In this document: positions 1,608 to 10,489 of the stretch, one piece after another
Numbering within the stretch: the stretch's first letter is position 1
How the letters are laid out: every line of letters begins with the position of its first letter
DNA from: a bacterium
Lineage (GTDB): Bacteria > JACRDZ01 > JAJRWM01
Direction: 5' to 3'
Length of the DNA: 10,489 nucleotides
NCBI GenBank assembly: GCA_024276815.1
Contig: JAJRWM010000046.1
Location: 1 to 10,489, forward strand
Position numbers and translations under genes: made by a program
The notes under the pieces: generated by a model
Databases searched by the model: none
What the model was told of the DNA's origin: nothing
Seen by the model: the letters and a program-made list of their open reading frames with translations, nothing else

Positions 1608-3482
1608 ATGATTGTCTTTTTTCTTCTGACCTTCGCCGTTTATCTGAAATTTCTGTTCCCGACCTTCGCCCTAGGCGACGGCGGGCTGTTCAGTACGGCG
1701 GCGGTTAACTTGGGAATTGTTCACCCGCCAGGATATCCCCTGTACGCTCTGCTTGGTAAAATCGCCAATATCCTTATCCCCCTTGCCAGCCCGGCCTGGC
1801 GCCTAAATCTTTTAACCGCTCTTTTTATGGCGATAGCGGTAACTTTACTGGTGTTATGTTTGCAAAAAATGGCTATGGGGAACTCGCTCAGCTATATTGT
1901 TGGGACGTGGCTGGCCCTGACGCCGGCGATAATCGGTAATGCCGCTTTTGGTGAAGTATACAGCCTGAACTTACTTTTCCTGAGCCTGGTGTTTTACCTT
2001 TTCCTCTGGCGGAGGTGGTCTTTGGCCGCTCTGGTTTACGGTTTGAGCGTTGCCAATCACTACCTGATGTTTATGTACTTCCCGGCCTTTATCCTGCTGG
2101 GCATTATCAAGGATCGACGTTTGCTGAAAAAAACACCTGCTTTCCTGATGTTTTTCCTGCTGGGCTGGGCGCTCTATCTCTATCTGCCGTTACGGGCGGT
2201 TAAATCTCCGGCCCTGAATTGGGGCAAGCCCTATAATCTGTTTTATTTCACCCAGCATCTTAAACGGAGCCACTTCCAGTTGCTTGAGTTTGGCGACAAA
2301 ATCCCGGGAATGGAAAAGTTACGCTTCAGTGAACATTTTCTGCTTCAAAGTATTGGCGTTTTCCCCTTCGGCTTTGGTCTCCTGGCTGTTATTGGTCTTT
2401 TGCTGGGCCTGTTTTATCTGAAGAAGGCTGAGTTCTTTTTGCCGGCCTATGTTTTCCTGGTAACCGGCCCCGGCTTAATCTGGGGACTTAATTTCGGCTT
2501 CACCTATGTTAACCGTTACCGCTTCGAGCCATACCTTCTGCCCTGCTGGTGGAGCCTGGCCATTGGACTGGCTGTTTTCCTCTCCCTGATCAGACATTAT
2601 AAAAACCAGTTGCCGAAGAAAACAATGTTATATCTTTTCTCACTAATCTTACTGGCGCTTCCCCCGGGTGCTCTCGCCTTAGCCGACTCTTTGGTTGCCG
2701 ACAGTTACTACGCCTATGATCTGGGAACCAATATTATGCGCTCTCTGCCCGAAAATTCCATCCTGTTTACCAAGGGCAGCAGTTCCGCCTTTTCACTGTA
2801 TCATTTAAAAGAAGTCGAGAGCAGACGTCCTGACCTGAATATCTATGACCGGGGGGGCGTGGTCTTCAGCGGGTTTCTGACCGCCCCGCTGTTTCAGATC
2901 TCGGCTCAGGACTGGCGGAGACAGCGCGATCTGAAAGAGCTGTCGGTAATACGAAGCGGAGAACGGTCGGTATACTACATTGAGAATCCTCAGTTTAAGA
3001 CCTCCGGCGGCCGGAACCTGATCTCCCGGGGTCTGGTTTATCAGGCCGGCCCGGCCCAAGAATCCCGGCCGTTACCCCGATTCGTTTTACGGGATCAGCA
3101 TATCACGACCAAGGACTTCTGGCTTGATTATGAGAGGGCGCGTTTCAATTTCAGGCTGGCCGAATATGCCGGTCAGACCAGAGGGAATAAAAAAGCGGCG
3201 CGGGAATATCTGGTGAGAGCGCAAAGCGTGGGAGAGGATATCGATTCCATCCAGGACCTGGTGGGCCGCTCGGCGCTCAAATTAAAAGATTATCCCTTGG
3301 CGGTTAAAGCCTGCCGGGAACTGGTCAGGATAAATCCCTCGTCCGTCTCCGCCCATTCAAAGCTGGCCTACACCCTGGAACTAAACGGACAACGGGCGGA
3401 GGCGTTAAGGGAAGCTGAAATCGTTCAGGAACTTGATCCGGGGAATAAAGCGGTTCAGAAAATCAGACGGAAATCCCGCTAA
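1608..3482 (+). CDS. DUF2723 (TMEM260-like) GT-C-type membrane glycosyltransferase with C-terminal TPRs
   Basis: A 624-residue polytopic membrane protein. The N-terminus carries the DUF2723 signature: a first membrane helix, then GDGG (23-26) and HPPGYPLY (39-46) in the first extracytoplasmic loop. In GT-C enzymes an acidic residue in this loop is catalytic, here probably D24. About ten hydrophobic helices run to roughly residue 370. A soluble region follows and the last 106 residues (519-624) contain two TPR-like helical pairs, including YPLAVKACRELVRINP. The family is related to eukaryotic TMEM260 O-mannosyltransferases and probably moves a sugar from a polyprenyl-phosphate donor to a protein or glycan outside the membrane; donor and acceptor here are unknown. 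An in-frame TGA at 1581 limits the N-terminus, so the ATG at 1608 is the natural start, although its Shine-Dalgarno is weak. The gene stands alone and no glycan-pathway genes adjoin it. Confidence 0.85.
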   Translation: MIVFFLLTFAVYLKFLFPTFALGDGGLFSTAAVNLGIVHPPGYPLYALLGKIANILIPLASPAWRLNLLTALFMAIAVTLLVLCLQKMAMGNSLSYIVGTWLALTPAIIGNAAFGEVYSLNLLFLSLVFYLFLWRRWSLAALVYGLSVANHYLMFMYFPAFILLGIIKDRRLLKKTPAFLMFFLLGWALYLYLPLRAVKSPALNWGKPYNLFYFTQHLKRSHFQLLEFGDKIPGMEKLRFSEHFLLQSIGVFPFGFGLLAVIGLLLGLFYLKKAEFFLPAYVFLVTGPGLIWGLNFGFTYVNRYRFEPYLLPCWWSLAIGLAVFLSLIRHYKNQLPKKTMLYLFSLILLALPPGALALADSLVADSYYAYDLGTNIMRSLPENSILFTKGSSSAFSLYHLKEVESRRPDLNIYDRGGVVFSGFLTAPLFQISAQDWRRQRDLKELSVIRSGERSVYYIENPQFKTSGGRNLISRGLVYQAGPAQESRPLPRFVLRDQHITTKDFWLDYERARFNFRLAEYAGQTRGNKKAAREYLVRAQSVGEDIDSIQDLVGRSALKLKDYPLAVKACRELVRINPSSVSAHSKLAYTLELNGQRAEALREAEIVQELDPGNKAVQKIRRKSR

Positions 3483-3514
3483 AGCAAACTTACAGTTTGT
3501 GTGATTTCGTCAGT

Positions 3515-3530
3515 GGGGCTGTTGCGGAAC
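3515..3530 (+). repeat. GGGGCTGTTGC inverted-repeat arm upstream of the cassette
   Basis: GGGGCTGTTGCGGAAC matches the reverse complement of 8251-8266 at 14 of 16 positions, in inverted orientation about 4.7 kb apart. A related arm lies at 8195-8210. Sequences of this kind look like insertion-sequence terminal repeats; no transposase is present nearby and the element family is not identified. Confidence 0.5.
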
Positions 3531-3572
3531 AGGGGGGTTTGGGGGGAATTTACGGTCAGAGGTGGGTTCGGG
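3515..3572 (+). other. G-run cluster with quadruplex potential
   Basis: Five G runs lie within 58 nt: G4 at 3515-3518, G6 at 3532-3537, G6 at 3541-3546, G3 at 3564-3566 and G3 at 3570-3572. Two G6 runs separated by TTT are unusual for this window. The G-rich strand is the coding strand, about 190 nt before the radical SAM start codon, so it could fold in mRNA or DNA. The rest of the gap to 3759 holds no gene I can support. Confidence 0.35.
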
Positions 3573-3759
3573 TTGGCAAAACAGCTCGTCGATAGATAGA
3601 TTCTGGGACTACGCGAATGATAGATATGGGGAAGATGCCGGAAAGAAGCGTGCCGCTTCACCCAATTCGCCTTCGGCGTAAAAGTCGGGCTTTCCAGGCT
3701 TTTGATTTTTGCCTTACACCTGAACGTTAAACGCTTTAGTAGAAAGAAGTTATCAAACA

Positions 3760-4872
3760 ATGCTACTGAAAATCAAGCGGGACCTGTCAGGTTACTTGAA
3801 TTCCAGAATCAAGCGGCGGCCTTTTTTCGCGGTCTTTCGAATCACTCGCCGTTGTGATCTGCGCTGCCGGATGTGCCGGGTCTGGAAGACCGGCTCCGCC
3901 AGGGAAGAAATGAGCCTGGAACAGGTCGCGCGGGTCGCTGAAATCCTTAAACGATTGCGTATCCCCTATGTCATCATTACCGGCGGGGAACCCTTTTTAC
4001 ATCCTCACCTTTTTGAAATACTTGACATCTTCTACCGTTCAGGCTTCGCGATTCGCCTGGAGACCAACGCCGGCAAGCTGGTGACGCCAAACAAACTTGA
4101 CCAGGCTGTGCAGAGCGGCGCGACTGATTTCAGCGTCTCGCTGGACGCGGTTACGCCGGCAATCCAGTCTTTTATTTGTAATAGTGAGGGAATCTGGGAA
4201 ACCATTACCGGCAATTTGGAATACGCCATCAAGATTTTTCCCGGCGATCTGCCCCTGGTCAATACGGTGGTAACCAGGTTGAATTTTCGGGAATTACCCC
4301 AACTGGTAAAATATGTTCATCAGAAGAACGCGTATATCATGATCGTGCCGGTAGTGTTAAGTTCTAATACTCAGGATAACAAATTATTTCGGGGAGCTTG
4401 TGAGGAGTTCGAGTTTACAGAGGCTGATTACCCTGAGCTGACAGAGGTTTACCGGGAATTGATAAACATGCGGAAATCAGGGTTCAATATTCTTAACTCA
4501 ACCAGATTCCTTAAGGATAGCTTAAAAGCTATAATTAGCAAACGGGCAAAGTGGGAATGCGACGCCGGCGAATTCTATATCGAGATCTTGCCTGACGGCC
4601 AGTTGGGGATCTGCAACGATATTCCCGGTCAGCTAAACGTTCTGGACAAGGATTTTTTTGAGACTTTTCATTCCCGGGCCTTTCGAAGGAAAGTGAAAGA
4701 ACTAAGAAAATCGTGCTCAGGCTGTACCTACGGAATTTATCGGGAGGTTTCTTACCATATGAATGATTATGTCGTACTGGGTGAAAGAATGAGCGATTTA
4801 ACCAAAGAAATAGCCAAACGTATGATTGGCGGCGGGATTCGTCCCAACAAGGCCCGGCGGAGGAATCATTGA
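3760..4872 (+). CDS. Radical SAM protein with twitch/SPASM-like C-terminal cysteines
   Basis: A 370-residue radical SAM enzyme. The cluster motif C-x3-C-x2-C is at C32, C36 and C39 (CDLRCRMC) and binds the [4Fe-4S] that cleaves S-adenosylmethionine. The SAM-contacting TGGEP motif is at 74-78 and later barrel strands include LETNAG (100-105) and FSVSLDA (124-130). C-terminal cysteines C267 (CDAGEF), C285 (after LPDGQLGI) and C319/C322 (CSGC) have the spacing of a twitch or reduced SPASM domain that holds an auxiliary Fe-S cluster. SPASM/twitch enzymes often modify peptides or proteins, but other substrates occur. There is no B12-binding domain. The TGA overlaps the ATG of the activase by one base, so the two are translationally coupled. 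A weak AAGAAG at 3744-3749 precedes the start by 10 nt. The substrate is unknown; context suggests a role with the dehydratase-like proteins. Confidence 0.85.
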   Translation: MLLKIKRDLSGYLNSRIKRRPFFAVFRITRRCDLRCRMCRVWKTGSAREEMSLEQVARVAEILKRLRIPYVIITGGEPFLHPHLFEILDIFYRSGFAIRLETNAGKLVTPNKLDQAVQSGATDFSVSLDAVTPAIQSFICNSEGIWETITGNLEYAIKIFPGDLPLVNTVVTRLNFRELPQLVKYVHQKNAYIMIVPVVLSSNTQDNKLFRGACEEFEFTEADYPELTEVYRELINMRKSGFNILNSTRFLKDSLKAIISKRAKWECDAGEFYIEILPDGQLGICNDIPGQLNVLDKDFFETFHSRAFRRKVKELRKSCSGCTYGIYREVSYHMNDYVVLGERMSDLTKEIAKRMIGGGIRPNKARRRNH

Positions 4873-5645
4873 TGTTAACCGCCGGCGTGGATATTGGTTC
4901 AAGATGCTCGAAAGCGGTCATTCTTCGCGAGCAACAAATAATAGGAACAACAATCATCGACACCGAAGTGCGAACCAGCCAATCCGGTCATGAGGAGTTA
5001 GCCGCGGCGCTTGAGGACGCCCGTCGTTCCCGGGCGGAACTGGATAAAATCGTCGCTACCGGTTATGGACGGATCTCGGCTCCTTTCGCCGATAAAGTGA
5101 TCACGGAAATCACCTGCCACGCCCGGGGGGCTTACCATCTCAATCCCAAGGCGAAAACGATCATCGATATCGGCGGTCAGGACAGCAAGGTGATCAGGGT
5201 CGGGGAGATGGGTATGGTTGACGACTTCGCCATGAATGACCGCTGCGCCGCTGGCACCGGCCGTTTTATCGAAGTTATGGCTCGTATTTTAAAAGTGGAC
5301 CTGACGACCTTCGGCAAATTTTATTTCAAGTCAAAAAAACCCTGTCAGATCAGCAGCGTCTGTACTGTTTTCGCTGAAAGCGAGGTTATTTCCCTGATGG
5401 CCGAGGGGCAAAAAGCCCGGGATATCGCCAAGGGTCTGATGAACTCGATCGCTGGCCGGGTTGGCGGCATGGTGAAGCGGGTTGGTATCGCCGAAGAAGT
5501 GGTTTTCAGCGGCGGAGTGGCTAAAAATGAAGGGATTATGCGAGCGCTCAGCGATGAGTTGGAAGTAAAAATTGTCCCCTTCAAGAAATTTGATCCTCAG
5601 TTAATCGGCGCTTTGGGAGCCGCCTTGCTAGCCCAAAATTCTTGA
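4872..5645 (+). CDS. HgdC/BcrA/BadF-type ATPase activase of 2-hydroxyacyl-CoA dehydratase family
   Basis: A 257-residue ASKHA-fold ATPase, the usual length for archerase-type activases (HgdC, FldI, YjiL). Visible motifs are the phosphate-1 loop GVDIGSRCSK (5-14), the second phosphate loop DIGGQDSK (99-106), CAAGTGRF (125-132) and SGGVAKNEG (213-221). C125 and C164 (SSVCTVFAES) are the conserved cysteines that bridge one [4Fe-4S] cluster between the two monomers; a further C158 lies nearby. Known members bind ATP, change shape, and shoot one low-potential electron into the partner dehydratase or double-cubane protein. The start is set at ATG 4872, inside TGATG of the radical SAM stop, with GGAGGA at 4859-4864 seven bases ahead; a TTG one codon earlier is less likely. 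It is the only activase in the cassette and so probably serves both following genes. Confidence 0.92.
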   Translation: MLTAGVDIGSRCSKAVILREQQIIGTTIIDTEVRTSQSGHEELAAALEDARRSRAELDKIVATGYGRISAPFADKVITEITCHARGAYHLNPKAKTIIDIGGQDSKVIRVGEMGMVDDFAMNDRCAAGTGRFIEVMARILKVDLTTFGKFYFKSKKPCQISSVCTVFAESEVISLMAEGQKARDIAKGLMNSIAGRVGGMVKRVGIAEEVVFSGGVAKNEGIMRALSDELEVKIVPFKKFDPQLIGALGAALLAQNS

Positions 5646-5657
5646 AAAAGGTTCTTG

Positions 5658-6806
5658 ATGGGATTTAATCTGGAAGCGGGACTACAACAAGCTCTGGCTG
5701 AAAGACCACAGGCGATTAGTCGGCTAAAAGAGGCTGGCCGGAAAGTTATCGGTTATTTTTGCTGTTATGTTCCCGGTGAGATAATTTCCGCTTTTGACGT
5801 GATTCCCGTGCGTTTGTTCAGGGGCGGCTCCGAAAAAGCCACCGCCGCCGGGTATAATTACACGACGCCGCACGCCTGTCCTTTTACGGCGGGCTGTATT
5901 GGCTTTCGGGAATCCGGCGAAGCCCCCTACTACCAGTTGGTTGATTATTTAGCGGACGCGCCTGTTTGTTTGCAGGTTAAGAGGATGCTGGAAGTTTGGC
6001 ATAAATACTTTGGCACGCGGTTAATCCAGATAGAGTTTCCCCTCAAATACTATGGTGAAAAGGCCCTGGATCGTTATCTTTTAGGTTTACGCAGCCTGGT
6101 GGAAGAACTGGAAAAAATTACCGGCAGACCGTTGAACATGGAAAAACTGGGCTTTGAAATTGACATATCGAACCAGGTACGGCGTCATTTTATTTATTTT
6201 TACGAACTGTTGAAAGAAGACAAGCCGGTGATCCAGTGGCGGGATCTGAACCGGGCGGTCAAGGCTTCATTTCTTCTGGATAAGCAAGAGACTCTGTCCA
6301 TATTAAAGGAATGGAAAAGTTCCCTGGATGGAGCGGTGGGCTTGGGGACTGAATATCGCGGCCGAATTCTTCTTACCGGCGGCATGTACGCTTACCGGGA
6401 TGAAAAGCTAAACAAGATTATGGCTGAGCTTGGCGGAGATTTTATTGTGGATGAAATATGCGTTGGCTCACGAGGCGTTTGGGGTGAAATCGGATCGCCG
6501 GATTTGCCGGGCATAGCGGAGAAGTATTTAAACAATGTTCCCTGCGGTTCTTTGCCACACCCTGATTTACAGACTGACCCTAGGATTAAACATTTAAGAA
6601 AACTTTTTGAAGAATACAGGGTTAACGGAGTTATCTACTACACATTACGTTTTTGTGACAGCTATTCTTTCAAAGTGAAAGAGCTGAGGAAAATCTTGTC
6701 AGAGTACAGGATTCCCCTGCTGCATATCCATTCCGATTACAGCGTTTCCGATCAGGGACAGATGCGAACCAGGGTGGAAGCTTTTCTGGAGTCGATCGGC
6801 TCGTGA
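5658..6806 (+). CDS. 2-hydroxyacyl-CoA dehydratase (HgdB/double-cubane) family protein 1
   Basis: A 382-residue member of the HgdB/FldC/BcrB superfamily, close to the usual 370-430. The N-terminal half shows GYFCCYVPGEII (32-43; classical members have one Cys here), HACPFTAGC (C74, C80) and DAPVC (C104), matching the three cluster-ligand positions plus extra cysteines. The second half has GGMY and ends with the shared signature GQMRTRVEAFLE (367-378); RFCDS (C333) resembles the conserved C-terminal C-D. Such proteins bind [4Fe-4S] or [8Fe-9S] double-cubane clusters and accept electrons from an activase. Classical dehydratases remove water from 2-hydroxyacyl-CoA; homologues include benzoyl-CoA reductase and double-cubane proteins that reduce small molecules. 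The substrate here is unknown. The start is ATG 5658, six bases after AAAAAGG (5645-5651) and 12 after the activase stop; a TTG one codon earlier lies too close to the ribosome site. It overlaps the next gene. Confidence 0.88.
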   Translation: MGFNLEAGLQQALAERPQAISRLKEAGRKVIGYFCCYVPGEIISAFDVIPVRLFRGGSEKATAAGYNYTTPHACPFTAGCIGFRESGEAPYYQLVDYLADAPVCLQVKRMLEVWHKYFGTRLIQIEFPLKYYGEKALDRYLLGLRSLVEELEKITGRPLNMEKLGFEIDISNQVRRHFIYFYELLKEDKPVIQWRDLNRAVKASFLLDKQETLSILKEWKSSLDGAVGLGTEYRGRILLTGGMYAYRDEKLNKIMAELGGDFIVDEICVGSRGVWGEIGSPDLPGIAEKYLNNVPCGSLPHPDLQTDPRIKHLRKLFEEYRVNGVIYYTLRFCDSYSFKVKELRKILSEYRIPLLHIHSDYSVSDQGQMRTRVEAFLESIGS

Positions 6807-8218
6807 GGCTGTTTGACAGGCTGTTAAAAACAATCAGAGGGCCGAGTCGTCTTTCTTTCGCGATATCGCTCGCCAAAAGTCCCTTGACCATGTTCAAAAT
6901 CAAGTCGTTACCTTCAATCACGGGGCGTAAAATTCCCGCTTTGCGGATCTTTTACTTTCTGACGCTGGCTTTGAAAAAATCTCCCGGCCTTTTCCAATTC
7001 CGGCTTGATCCAACCATCGGCGGTTTCTCGGAATTAACCTTTTTATTGTTGAGCCTTGATCTGCGTCTGGACAAGATGAGAAAAAAAGGTTTTCGCGTTG
7101 TCGGCAAGTGGCCGGCTAATCCCACCGATATTTATTTCGCCGCCGGCTGTATCGCGCTCGATCCTTTTTTATTCGCCTACTGCCGCATGATTGCCACGGG
7201 TGAAAACATGTTGGCGACCCGGGGCCGGGGTGAATTAGCGGTAGACGCTTGTCCCGCCCAGGCCGCCGGCTACACGGCTGTCACGCAGGGCATTATCACG
7301 CTGGACACCTTTTATCCCTTTATCGGCCCCTGGTGTTATGACTCGCAGTATTGCTTTGAGGCCATGCGTTATCTGGTCGAAGGCCATTTCGGCGAGCAGC
7401 CGATTGATTTTAGCGGGAAAAACAGCGAAGAGGCTTTCAGCTATATGTTGACGGAAGTAAAGAAGTGTGTGGAAACTCTGGGCCGGCTAAGCGGGCGTCA
7501 GGTTACGGCGGAGCATTTAAAGGCGGAGTTCGCCCTGGAAAACAAGCTGAGAGGTTATCTGCGTGAGCTAATGGATTTGATGCAGCGGAAAACAGTTCCT
7601 CTGGGAAGTCTGGAGTTCATCATGGCGATTTTTATCGCCAGTGACTGGCTGGCCGATCCGCCGGCCATGGAAAAGACCCTGTCCATCCTGGTTGATTCGG
7701 CCAGGAAACGGGTATCGCGGGGTGTTCAGGGCAAGGGAGTCAGCGAAAATCCGATTCGTTTATTAATAACCGGAATTGCCTGGGGCGACCTGGGTCTTTA
7801 TAATATTATTGATGATCTGGGGGCTGTTATTGTTGGTTCAGAGTGTGTCCAGAATTTGTTTTATGAGGATATTTCCCTGGCCGGCGATCCCTTTGAGGTT
7901 TTGGCCCGCCGTTTTCTGGAGGTCCCCTACACTTTGACGGCGGAAGCCCGCGGGAGGTGGACGGTGGAAAATATTCGAAAAATGAAATATATCGACGGAG
8001 TTTTGTTTAACTGTAATTTTGGCTGTAACTATCAGACCACGGAGGCCCGGATCGTTACTGACATCATCAAAAAAGAGACCGGTTTGCCCTGTTTGGTTAC
8101 TAACACGGACTTGCCTAATGAGGGACGGGGGCAAATGCGGACCCGGCTGGAAGCTTTCATAGAAATGATCCGCTCTAAAGCAAAGTGCAATCAAGGGACT
8201 GTTGCGAAATGCAAATAA
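6803..8218 (+). CDS. 2-hydroxyacyl-CoA dehydratase family protein 2, long and cysteine-rich
   Basis: A 471-residue paralogue-like partner of the preceding protein. A basic/hydrophobic N-terminal extension of about 100 residues precedes the dehydratase-like part. Corresponding motifs are YFAAGC (C116), VDACPAQAAGY (C150), GPWCYDSQYC (C178, C184), GSEC (C348) and FNCNFGCNY (C404, C408), and the closing GQMRTRLEAFIEM signature (444-456) matches that of protein 1, so the two probably form a complex. The extra C404/C408 pair is not typical of HgdA/HgdB as I know them. The GTG at 6803 overlaps the preceding TGA (GTGA) with GGAG 11 nt upstream; an internal ATG at codon 30 (6890) has no ribosome site. 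The last residues (about GTVAKCK) are encoded by the left arm of the 72-bp inverted-repeat element, so the natural C-terminus may have been altered. It may act with the activase on an unknown low-potential reduction. Confidence 0.82.
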   Translation: MRLFDRLLKTIRGPSRLSFAISLAKSPLTMFKIKSLPSITGRKIPALRIFYFLTLALKKSPGLFQFRLDPTIGGFSELTFLLLSLDLRLDKMRKKGFRVVGKWPANPTDIYFAAGCIALDPFLFAYCRMIATGENMLATRGRGELAVDACPAQAAGYTAVTQGIITLDTFYPFIGPWCYDSQYCFEAMRYLVEGHFGEQPIDFSGKNSEEAFSYMLTEVKKCVETLGRLSGRQVTAEHLKAEFALENKLRGYLRELMDLMQRKTVPLGSLEFIMAIFIASDWLADPPAMEKTLSILVDSARKRVSRGVQGKGVSENPIRLLITGIAWGDLGLYNIIDDLGAVIVGSECVQNLFYEDISLAGDPFEVLARRFLEVPYTLTAEARGRWTVENIRKMKYIDGVLFNCNFGCNYQTTEARIVTDIIKKETGLPCLVTNTDLPNEGRGQMRTRLEAFIEMIRSKAKCNQGTVAKCK

Positions 8219-8266
8219 AGTATTCAATATATCGGGGGCCGGTCACTCCCGTTTTGCAACAGCCCC
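8195..8266. mobile_element. 72-bp MITE-like element with terminal inverted repeats
   Basis: GGGACTGTTGCGAAAT (8195-8210) and the reverse complement of 8251-8266 (GGGGCTGTTGCAAAAC) agree at 13 of 16 positions, enclosing 40 bp. This is the structure of a very small non-autonomous element or an internally deleted insertion sequence. It overlaps the 3' end of the second dehydratase-like gene, supplying its stop codon, and lies between two convergent genes. I see no convincing target-site duplication. The paired arms could also act as a stem that limits read-through. Confidence 0.5.
8251..8266 (-). repeat. GGGGCTGTTGC inverted-repeat arm downstream of the cassette
   Basis: Read on the minus strand this is GGGGCTGTTGCAAAAC, matching the arm at 3515-3530 at 14 of 16 positions. 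Together they bracket the radical SAM-dehydratase cassette in inverted orientation. Confidence 0.55.
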
Positions 8267-8334: not shown

Positions 8335-9351
8335 TTATTGGAGAGGAAAGGATTCGAAGACGGTGACCCGGTTCTCCAAGACCTCAGCAACGTAAAGGCG
8401 GCCACCACGATAATCCAGGGACATACAGGTGCCTATCGGTAAAACGCCGCCAGTATCACTCTTTAATTGATATAAATAATTGCCACCCGCGTCAAAAACA
8501 TTTATCCAGCCAAAGAAATCACCACCATACACTCGACCCGCTTCATCAATACAAATCGCCATTGGACGAAAAAAAGTGCCGGGACCCGTACCATATCCAG
8601 CAAACACCTTGACCGGACTGTCAGTAGCGTCAAACTTGACAATAAGACAATCCAGCGCATCAATGACATATAGCTCATCCTGATCGTTAAAGGCAATATC
8701 TTTGACCTGGCGGAAACTTACCCTGCTGCCAGTGTCAGGATGATCGAAATAATGCATCTGTTTCTTGAAATTACCGCCACGATCAAAAATTAATATATCG
8801 TTATAGGTGGAAACATAAATATCACCGTTACTCTTAACCGCTATCCCGTCGCCATAGAAAGGATGGTAATCTTTATTGGGAACCGGAACCTGATACTTTT
8901 CCTCAGAATAATTCTGCTGGTAAAACCATTGGCCACTATTCAGAAAGCCTCGATAATAGACACTGGGAAGCGTTATCTGCATTAAGGGCTGGCCGGACAT
9001 GCTGTACTTTTTAATATAACCACCGTCAAGAACGCCAAAATAAAGGTTGCCCTCCTGATCAAGATCAATAGCGTCAGGATGAGCCGTGTCATATATCGAC
9101 TCAACCTTATCATAATTCCCCAAGCCATAATAATTCATATGCTGTAAATTTTTGTCATACAAATGAACCTTGGAGCCAGTGCCCTCAGAAACAACAAAAT
9201 TGCCCAAGGCGTCAGCTCTGACTCCACGTGGGCCATTCATCCCGGGAACCTCACCAACATATAACATCTCTCCTTCAGAGAAGGTAAAACTGGCAAGCAG
9301 CAGTAAGATAACCAGAAAAGCTGGTAAACGTAACTTTTTTAATGGAAGCAT
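8335..9351 (-). CDS. Exported six-bladed NHL-repeat beta-propeller protein
   Basis: A 338-residue protein. Residues 1-25 are a signal peptide (MLPLKKLRLP, then a long Leu/Ile/Val core). The rest shows six NHL-like blades at about 40-68, 91-117, 168-190, 215-241, 262-288 and 305-333, each with a P-x-[AG]-[IV] strand, a D-x-x-G-[NRD]-x-[YV] turn and a strand ending in a hydrophobic-F/Y-D pattern, as in GDGIAVKSNGDIYVS and AICIDEAGRVYGGD. NHL propellers bind proteins or ligands; no catalytic residue is evident. The frame is open up to 9405, but the ATG at 9351 is chosen because the signal peptide starts there and AAGGGA lies about seven bases ahead. That site falls inside the last codons of the upstream gene, whose TAA ends one base before the ATG, so translation is coupled. 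Extracytoplasmic location is inferred. Confidence 0.82.
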   Translation of the reverse strand: MLPLKKLRLPAFLVILLLLASFTFSEGEMLYVGEVPGMNGPRGVRADALGNFVVSEGTGSKVHLYDKNLQHMNYYGLGNYDKVESIYDTAHPDAIDLDQEGNLYFGVLDGGYIKKYSMSGQPLMQITLPSVYYRGFLNSGQWFYQQNYSEEKYQVPVPNKDYHPFYGDGIAVKSNGDIYVSTYNDILIFDRGGNFKKQMHYFDHPDTGSRVSFRQVKDIAFNDQDELYVIDALDCLIVKFDATDSPVKVFAGYGTGPGTFFRPMAICIDEAGRVYGGDFFGWINVFDAGGNYLYQLKSDTGGVLPIGTCMSLDYRGGRLYVAEVLENRVTVFESFPLQ

Positions 9352-9352
9352 A

Positions 9353-10489
9353 TTATTTCCCTTGATCCTGATTTTGAGCCGCGCCGCTGACATAGTACCT
9401 GACACCGCCGTATTTGGTGATAACCTTGAGGCCGTTTATTTCCGTGCGGGCAACGTCCAGAATATCAATGCTGACAATATCCTCTTTAATCAATGAGGGA
9501 TCATCGATGATAACTGGCAGGGAAGCCCCGAAGCTGAGTTGACCATTAACAATTTCAGCCAGATATACTTTTAGTTCGCCATTGCCGTTTAAGGTCAAAA
9601 GATCGGGTAAGTCATCATCGTTAGCCTCCACGACAAAGGGCTTGACGTAACCACCTGGGTCATAGATACTGAAACCGGCAATGTCTTTGAGGTGCCGCCC
9701 CTTGTTTAAGACCGGCTGGCGGTCACTTCCCTGGTTCAGATAAAGGTTGATATAGCCATCCCTGTTACCCACCAGGAGGTCCTTCTTGCCGTCGCCATTC
9801 CAGTCCCAGACCAGCGGATTAGCTTCCCCGCCAACGTTAAGCTTCAATCTCCGGCCGGCATCGGCTACTGAACCTTTCCCCATCACTTTGCGGGGATTAT
9901 GGACACTCACATTGCCAAAGGAATCACCAGCAACCAAATCAAGCTGGCCGTTATCATCCCAGTCAACCCAGTTATAGCCGCCGACTTTATTTAATTTGCC
10001 AAATTTCTGCCTGTCTGCCTGCTTAGGCCTACGGCGGTGATCCGCAATATATTTCACGCTCCTTGAATCCGGGCCGGCGTTAAGCGGCACGTAGCGAGTA
10101 GCGATTCGAGGCGGCAGGAAGGCGGTGATCTCGGTATCGGTAGTAATATCAACGGTAGCTTTATAAACACCGCAGGTCGGCATCATAACTTCAATCTTGT
10201 GCTGACCAAGCGGCACCCCTTCATAGACCAAGGGAGTTTCCCCCACCTTGCTAACTTGCCAGCGGGGATCGATCTCGCCACCATCAAAGTATACTTTGAC
10301 CAGGTTGGTGTTGGTGTTAATGGTCAGTTTGCCGGGATCAGGCTCTTTCACAGGTACGTTCTTCCCTGAGCCGCCACCAGCCGCGTTAGCCATCTGCTTT
10401 CCTTGAGCTAACGGTTGTGAGCCATAGACAGTAACTTTGTTATCCCAGTAGTGAGAAACGATTAATTTTGTACCGTCCGGAGTAAAGGC
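9353..10489 (-). CDS. Propeller-PEGA-VCBS surface protein (5' end outside window)
   Basis: The frame is open from the window edge (10489) for 378 codons to a TAA at 9353-9355, so the N-terminus is missing; an internal ATG at 10393 is not the true start because the preceding 32 codons clearly belong to the protein. The first visible residues, FTPDGTKLIVSHYWDNKVTV, are a YVTN/WD40-like propeller blade. After a Gly/Ser linker comes a PEGA-like domain (about 53-126: VKVYFDGGE, GETPLVYEGVPLGQHKIEV). Then come at least three FG-GAP/VCBS-type repeats with calcium-loop patterns: DWDDNGQLDL near 176, DWNGDGKKDL near 229 and a weaker EANDDDLPDL near 288. These modules are typical of large secreted or outer-surface adhesion proteins. 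The mix of propeller, PEGA and VCBS in one chain is unusual. It forms an operon with the NHL protein downstream. Function is not known; surface binding is inferred. Confidence 0.8.
   Translation of the reverse strand, partial: AFTPDGTKLIVSHYWDNKVTVYGSQPLAQGKQMANAAGGGSGKNVPVKEPDPGKLTINTNTNLVKVYFDGGEIDPRWQVSKVGETPLVYEGVPLGQHKIEVMMPTCGVYKATVDITTDTEITAFLPPRIATRYVPLNAGPDSRSVKYIADHRRRPKQADRQKFGKLNKVGGYNWVDWDDNGQLDLVAGDSFGNVSVHNPRKVMGKGSVADAGRRLKLNVGGEANPLVWDWNGDGKKDLLVGNRDGYINLYLNQGSDRQPVLNKGRHLKDIAGFSIYDPGGYVKPFVVEANDDDLPDLLTLNGNGELKVYLAEIVNGQLSFGASLPVIIDDPSLIKEDIVSIDILDVARTEINGLKVITKYGGVRYYVSGAAQNQDQGK

Follow-up and report, generated by a model that had tools for sequence, protein, structure and literature searches.

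Class I benzoyl-CoA reductase, the 2-hydroxyacyl-CoA dehydratases and the double-cubane proteins (DCCPs) are the closest described systems to the locus reported here. The Bzd form of benzoyl-CoA reductase (BzdNO with BzdPQ; PDB 8s02) is activase-driven and pairs a six-ligand subunit with a three-ligand [4Fe-4S] subunit. In BzdN, the [8Fe-9S] double-cubane cluster is held by Cys36, Cys73, Cys100, Cys263, Cys293 and Cys327, and in BzdO the catalytic [4Fe-4S]-OH2 cluster is held by Cys95, Cys128 and Cys380, with Glu65, His131 and Trp46 nearby (PMC11971306). The [8Fe-9S] cluster has been described only in BzdN and in DCCP, a homodimer of unknown biological function that carries a double cubane in each subunit, and it has been proposed that catalytic function in the family arises once a subunit loses one sub-cluster (PMC11971306). 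DCCP and YjiM proteins (PDB 6eno, 7yyl; E. coli YjiM-YjiL) have six ligands and a single activase. The HadBC, HgdAB and FldBC dehydratases also combine an activase with two HGD-D subunits, one of which has a three-cysteine cluster. PlsA and the glycerol ester reductase Ger, which reduce esters in anaerobes, are large single proteins with built-in PF01869 activation domains (PMC13274423). Our literature search found nothing on the gene set described below, in which an activase and two HGD-D proteins, here called H1 and H2, follow a radical SAM gene.

Gene layout and family membership

The window, that is, the whole stretch of DNA analysed, is contig C210 in its entirety (10,489 bases). The genome it comes from, 2.39 Mb in 246 contigs, is 91% complete and belongs to a phylum sampled by four genomes. 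An earlier note on this DNA described four co-oriented genes at 3760-8218 with short overlaps or a short gap between them, and the open reading frame coordinates bear this out (Table 1). The radical SAM and activase genes overlap by 1 to 4 bases (1 base from the ATG of the activase), 12 bases separate the activase from the ATG of H1, and H1 and H2 overlap by 4 bases. A promoter and terminator scan gave nothing better than shuffled sequence. Elsewhere in the window, a TMEM260-like membrane gene lies upstream of the operon, and two minus-strand genes at 8335-10489, which encode an NHL/beta-propeller protein and an FG-GAP/PEGA repeat protein, converge on it.

Table 1. Features of the operon and its flanks, in window coordinates
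Feature	Position	Strand	Details
Insertion-sequence-like end, left of operon	3515-3581	+	84% to the C90 contig end over 68 bases
Radical SAM protein	3760-4872	+	370 aa; PF04055; Cys conserved; clade with L023 and L065 orthologs
Activase	4869-5645	+	TTG start, 258 aa; 257 aa from ATG 4872; TIGR00241 above cut-off
H1, HGD-D protein	5655-6806	+	TTG start, 383 aa; ATG at 5658; PF06050
H2, HGD-D protein	6803-8218	+	GTG start, 471 aa, N-terminal part longer; PF06050
Insertion-sequence-like end(s), right of operon	8195-8266	-	98% over 42 bases to C130; 22/22 bases to C90

In gene order, the Pfam assignments are Radical_SAM (E 2e-21), BcrAD_BadFG (PF01869, E 5e-60), HGD-D (E 2e-76) and HGD-D (E 9e-48). 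The activase scores 271 bits against the TIGR00241 cut-off of 125, and its cluster cysteines, Cys126 and Cys165, are conserved in six relatives. The locus thus belongs to the BCR/HAD/DCCP superfamily by its PF06050 and PF01869 scores, its two activase cluster cysteines and its predicted fold. In the 91% of the genome that is present, PF06050 matches nothing but H1 and H2, and PF01869 nothing but the activase, so the three proteins probably serve one another, barring partners in the missing part. The suggestion that this is a dedicated system therefore holds for the genome as assembled. No protein with two activase domains was found in the same 91%. Proteins of that kind, similar to Ger and PlsA and mostly of about 1165 to 1454 aa, occur in the related genomes G001-G003, G386-G388 and G495.

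Models for the named members of the family score H1 and H2 well below their cut-offs. The bzdN model (TIGR03190) gives H1 76 against 454, and the bzdO model (TIGR03191) does not match H2. With the HadC model (NF052456), H1 and H2 score 92 and 40 against 700, and with the BcrC model 70 and 35 against 421; HadB (NF052455) and BcrB give no match. The double-cubane anaerobic reductase model (NF040772) gives 225 bits for H1 and 116 for H2 against a cut-off of 350; true members in other loci reach 450 to 542 bits.

Conservation of the activase-H1-H2 unit

The order activase-H1-H2 is kept in five close loci of scattered lineages, namely the window, L023 (a metagenome-assembled genome labelled Deltaproteobacteria), L024 (SZUA-191), L025 (labelled Schekmanbacteria) and L026 (from the window's phylum); the genome collection assigns L024 and L025 to a single phylum. 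Fusion of activase with H1 gives one protein of about 650 aa in both L025 and L026. This conservation, together with the family scores, excludes chance as the source of the arrangement. Two more distant loci also contain H2. The contig of L028 ends soon after H1 and is too short to show an activase, and L066 has no activase adjacent to H1-H2. In the still more distant L070, activase, H1-like and H2-like genes stand in a row. The conserved unit is activase-H1-H2, not four genes.

H2 is rare, being found in 4 of 386 broadly drawn genomes at E 1e-40, and in 2/297 genomes of L023's phylum (one of them distant) and in 2/9 of L024's. A scan of species genomes with short exact peptides, which divergent members may escape, returned three loci (L023, L024 and L025). 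In plasmid records, the HGD-D proteins were all of the DCCP/YjiM type or otherwise distant. An Azoarcus sp. KH32C plasmid (L120, 2151-6342) encodes a different arrangement of activase, fused activase-HGD-D and HGD-D proteins, divergent from all tree groups. Other observations concern the surroundings of these loci. In L026, two genes immediately precede the one for the fused activase-H1 protein. The first (2364-4979) encodes an 871-aa protein that by eye looks like a reverse transcriptase-Cas1 fusion beginning with a Cas6-like part, and the second (5005-5289) is, by eye, Cas2-like. The small phylum of genomes G089 (the source of L005 and L028) and G229 is unusually rich in candidate HGD-D relatives, with up to about 80 at first look in G089.

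The absence of CoA transferase, racemase and acyl-CoA dehydrogenase genes, on which the earlier note had remarked, holds for the window, a contig of only 10.5 kb, and likewise for the surroundings of H1-H2 in the related loci, where neighbouring reading frames were read, most of them without a family scan. This speaks against clustering of a large catabolic pathway at these loci, and no pathway gene among the neighbours points to a substrate.

Cluster ligands and predicted structure

Ligands were compared across 38 aligned proteins of the family, with the BzdN and BzdO positions as reference. All six BzdN double-cubane ligand positions are cysteine in 7/7 H1 proteins (Cys36, Cys75, Cys105, Cys269, Cys297 and Cys334), and likewise in the H1-like protein of L070. 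Cysteine occupies only the three proximal positions (150, 178 and 408) in all seven H2 proteins; the distal positions are taken by Trp/Tyr/Phe-Pro-type residues and by Tyr or Phe (Trp103 and Tyr376 in the window). From these patterns, H1 is predicted to be a double-cubane [8Fe-9S] subunit and H2 an open-site [4Fe-4S] subunit. Cys348 and Cys404 of H2 are also invariant, and given that they are retained, the H2 cluster may differ from the BzdO type. The position of BzdO His131 is Ser181 in H2 (Thr in L066). H2 has a DPF motif whose Asp120 lies 30 residues before Cys150, just as Glu65 of the BzdO EPY motif lies 30 before Cys95. We suggest that Asp120 may correspond to Glu65, with the automatic alignment two residues off at this point.

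AlphaFold models of H1 and H2 have mean pLDDT values of 82.7 and 79.5. The best structural match of the H1 model is DCCP (TM 0.88, Z 40), and the H2 model retrieves family members at Z 26-32. For both models, this family stands far above any other fold match.

Phylogeny

The H1 proteins form one clade and the H2 proteins another (support 100/98 and 100/99), and both lie outside the named groups that the tree covered, which were DCCP/YjiM, BzdN, BzdO, HadB, HadC and MbdN. Nesting of either protein inside a characterised clade, which would have counted against the earlier note, is thus not seen among the clades tested. The two trees largely mirror each other, with the same pairs (L028-L066, L023-L024 and L025-L026) in both, as expected of partners, while the position of the window's H2 within its clade is weakly supported and differs between two trees.

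A tree uniting H2 and BzdO in a single clade is rejected (p-AU 5.8e-5), for which reason, within the groups covered, the distal ligands of H2 seem to have been lost independently of BzdO, although the branches are long. The design of a double-cubane subunit with an open-site subunit probably arose separately here. For H1, the best tree shows a separate clade, but a joint clade shared with DCCP is not rejected (p-AU 0.40). Judged by model scores and trees, H1 and H2 do not look like ordinary DCCP, Bzd or Had proteins, subject for H1 to that unrejected joint clade. If the sub-cluster was lost more than once, a separate pair of full-ligand and ligand-depleted subunits would make the sub-cluster-loss proposal testable.

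Proposed mechanism

We consider it probable that activase, H1 and H2 together make up a reductase that is driven by ATP, works at very low potential and belongs to the family of the benzoyl-CoA reductases, 2-hydroxyacyl-CoA dehydratases and double-cubane proteins. An activase with a double-cubane subunit and an open-site [4Fe-4S] subunit has the layout of BzdNO, and on that likeness we infer that H1 would store electrons and that H2 would contain the active site. The activase dimer would hydrolyse ATP and push single electrons onto H1, which would collect them on its [8Fe-9S] cluster and, paired with H2, hand them to the three-cysteine [4Fe-4S] cluster and its open iron site. The substrate would be reduced there, with Asp120 as candidate proton donor. 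The earlier reading of an activase and two HGD-D subunits as an ATP-driven electron-injection set is supported, and the set nests in none of the characterised clades tested.

The predicted fold and the six- and three-ligand subunits are those of the Bzd reductase, but that enzyme has two activase genes where this locus has one, H1 and H2 lie outside the BzdN and BzdO clades, and H2 lacks an equivalent of His131. DCCP is nearest to H1 in sequence and fold and shares the six ligands and the single activase; unlike DCCP, the system described here has a second subunit without three of the ligands. PlsA and Ger share the PF01869 activase domain, whereas the proteins here are small, separate and of the PF06050 family.

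The alternative that H1-H2 is a radical acyl-CoA dehydratase of the HgdAB, HadBC or FldBC type, acting on an unrecognised hydroxyacyl-CoA with an activase that fires once per many turnovers, appears unlikely to us. Its Pfam families and single activase gene are those of the dehydratases, and the three-cysteine arrangement of H2 is that of HadB. H1, however, has all of the distal double-cubane ligands, which are partly lost in HadC, neither protein nests with HadB or HadC, the dehydratases that the sequence comparison covered, and no CoA transferase or other CoA-ester pathway genes lie near H1-H2. Because the dehydratase subunit HadC is without distal ligands that H1 has, we favour reduction over dehydration. 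The rule is not strict, since MbdN is a reductase subunit without distal ligands, and a full ligand set is therefore no proof of a reductase.

A bolder form of the reductase reading is possible, and we offer it tentatively. The enzyme could be a separately evolved heterodimeric double-cubane reductase in whose catalytic subunit the distal sub-cluster was lost independently of BzdO and HadB, whose substrate lies outside known CoA-ester chemistry and which is sometimes accompanied by a radical SAM enzyme. The three genes, which come from uncultured bacteria, also make up a compact system that could be expressed to seek very-low-potential reductions.

The radical SAM gene

The radical SAM protein has its CxxxCxxC motif at Cys32, Cys36 and Cys39 (3853-3876). 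The earlier note had spoken of auxiliary-cluster cysteines; four C-terminal cysteines (267, 285, 319 and 322; 4558-4725) are conserved in full-length relatives and make one auxiliary cluster probable. No named NCBIfam radical SAM family scores above its cut-off, the best being TIGR04053 with 82.5 against 395.

We reject a conserved four-gene cassette because this gene varies across loci. It is adjacent to H1-H2 in 2/7 loci, before the activase in the window and after H2 in L023 (44% identity). The L024 genome has a 49% ortholog at the end of another contig, adjoined by respiratory-complex genes on the opposite strand, and no ortholog was detected in the genomes of L025, L026, L028 and L066. 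The radical SAM gene is thus largely missing from the related loci, an outcome that the earlier note had named as refuting its reading. In L025 and L026, the next gene instead encodes a tandem nitroreductase-like protein. Because the radical SAM gene is missing from these two of the five close genomes, it is most likely an accessory in some lineages, dispensable for the core enzyme, and there it would most likely act on the substrate or product of the same pathway.

The three H-associated radical SAM proteins (window, L023 and L065) form one clade (support 100/99). Eight sampled genomes that lack H2 also contain members of the wider family. Its neighbours are PMT_2 glycosyltransferase and methyltransferase genes in L082 and L083, and B12-binding radical SAM and lipid A acyltransferase-like genes in L084 and L085. 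The cluster conserved in these last two genomes (L084, 4258-9197; L085, 4346-9272) is made up of genes for a B12-binding radical SAM protein, a radical SAM protein, a second protein related to the first, a lipid A acyltransferase-like protein and a glycosyltransferase-like protein. Such neighbours hint weakly that the radical SAM role is perhaps in envelope lipid or glycan chemistry.

It is quite improbable, in our estimate, that the whole operon belongs to an envelope-lipid or glycan pathway, in which H1-H2 would reduce a lipid-linked substrate much as PlsA and Ger act on glycerolipid esters, with the same lipid being modified by the radical SAM enzyme. The neighbours of the radical SAM subfamily, the TMEM260-like gene upstream in the window and the PF01869 domains of PlsA-like and Ger proteins are consistent with such a pathway. 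Yet those neighbours bear only on the optional radical SAM gene, other H1-H2 loci are without them, and several H1-H2 genomes also have a separate two-activase protein of the Ger/PlsA type (1165-1423 aa). A single four-gene machine in which the radical SAM protein would serve as dedicated maturase for H1 or H2 is very improbable, despite the tight overlap of its gene with the activase gene in the window, the adjacency in L023 and the single clade of H-associated proteins, since the gene is patchy among H1-H2 loci, the H1 and H2 ligands are the same in the four genomes in which no ortholog was detected, and the wider family occurs without H2; maturation, one of two roles that the earlier note had offered, is thus unlikely as a general role.

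Insertion-sequence-like ends

Degenerate insertion-sequence-like ends bracket the operon in inverted orientation. Copies recur on two other contigs of this genome, C90 and C130, in one case at the very end of the contig. The left end contains an exact 11-base core with an inverted copy at 8256-8266, and the right repeat overlaps the final codons of H2. Given these bracketing repeats and the scattered distribution of the loci, horizontal transfer of the operon would fit.
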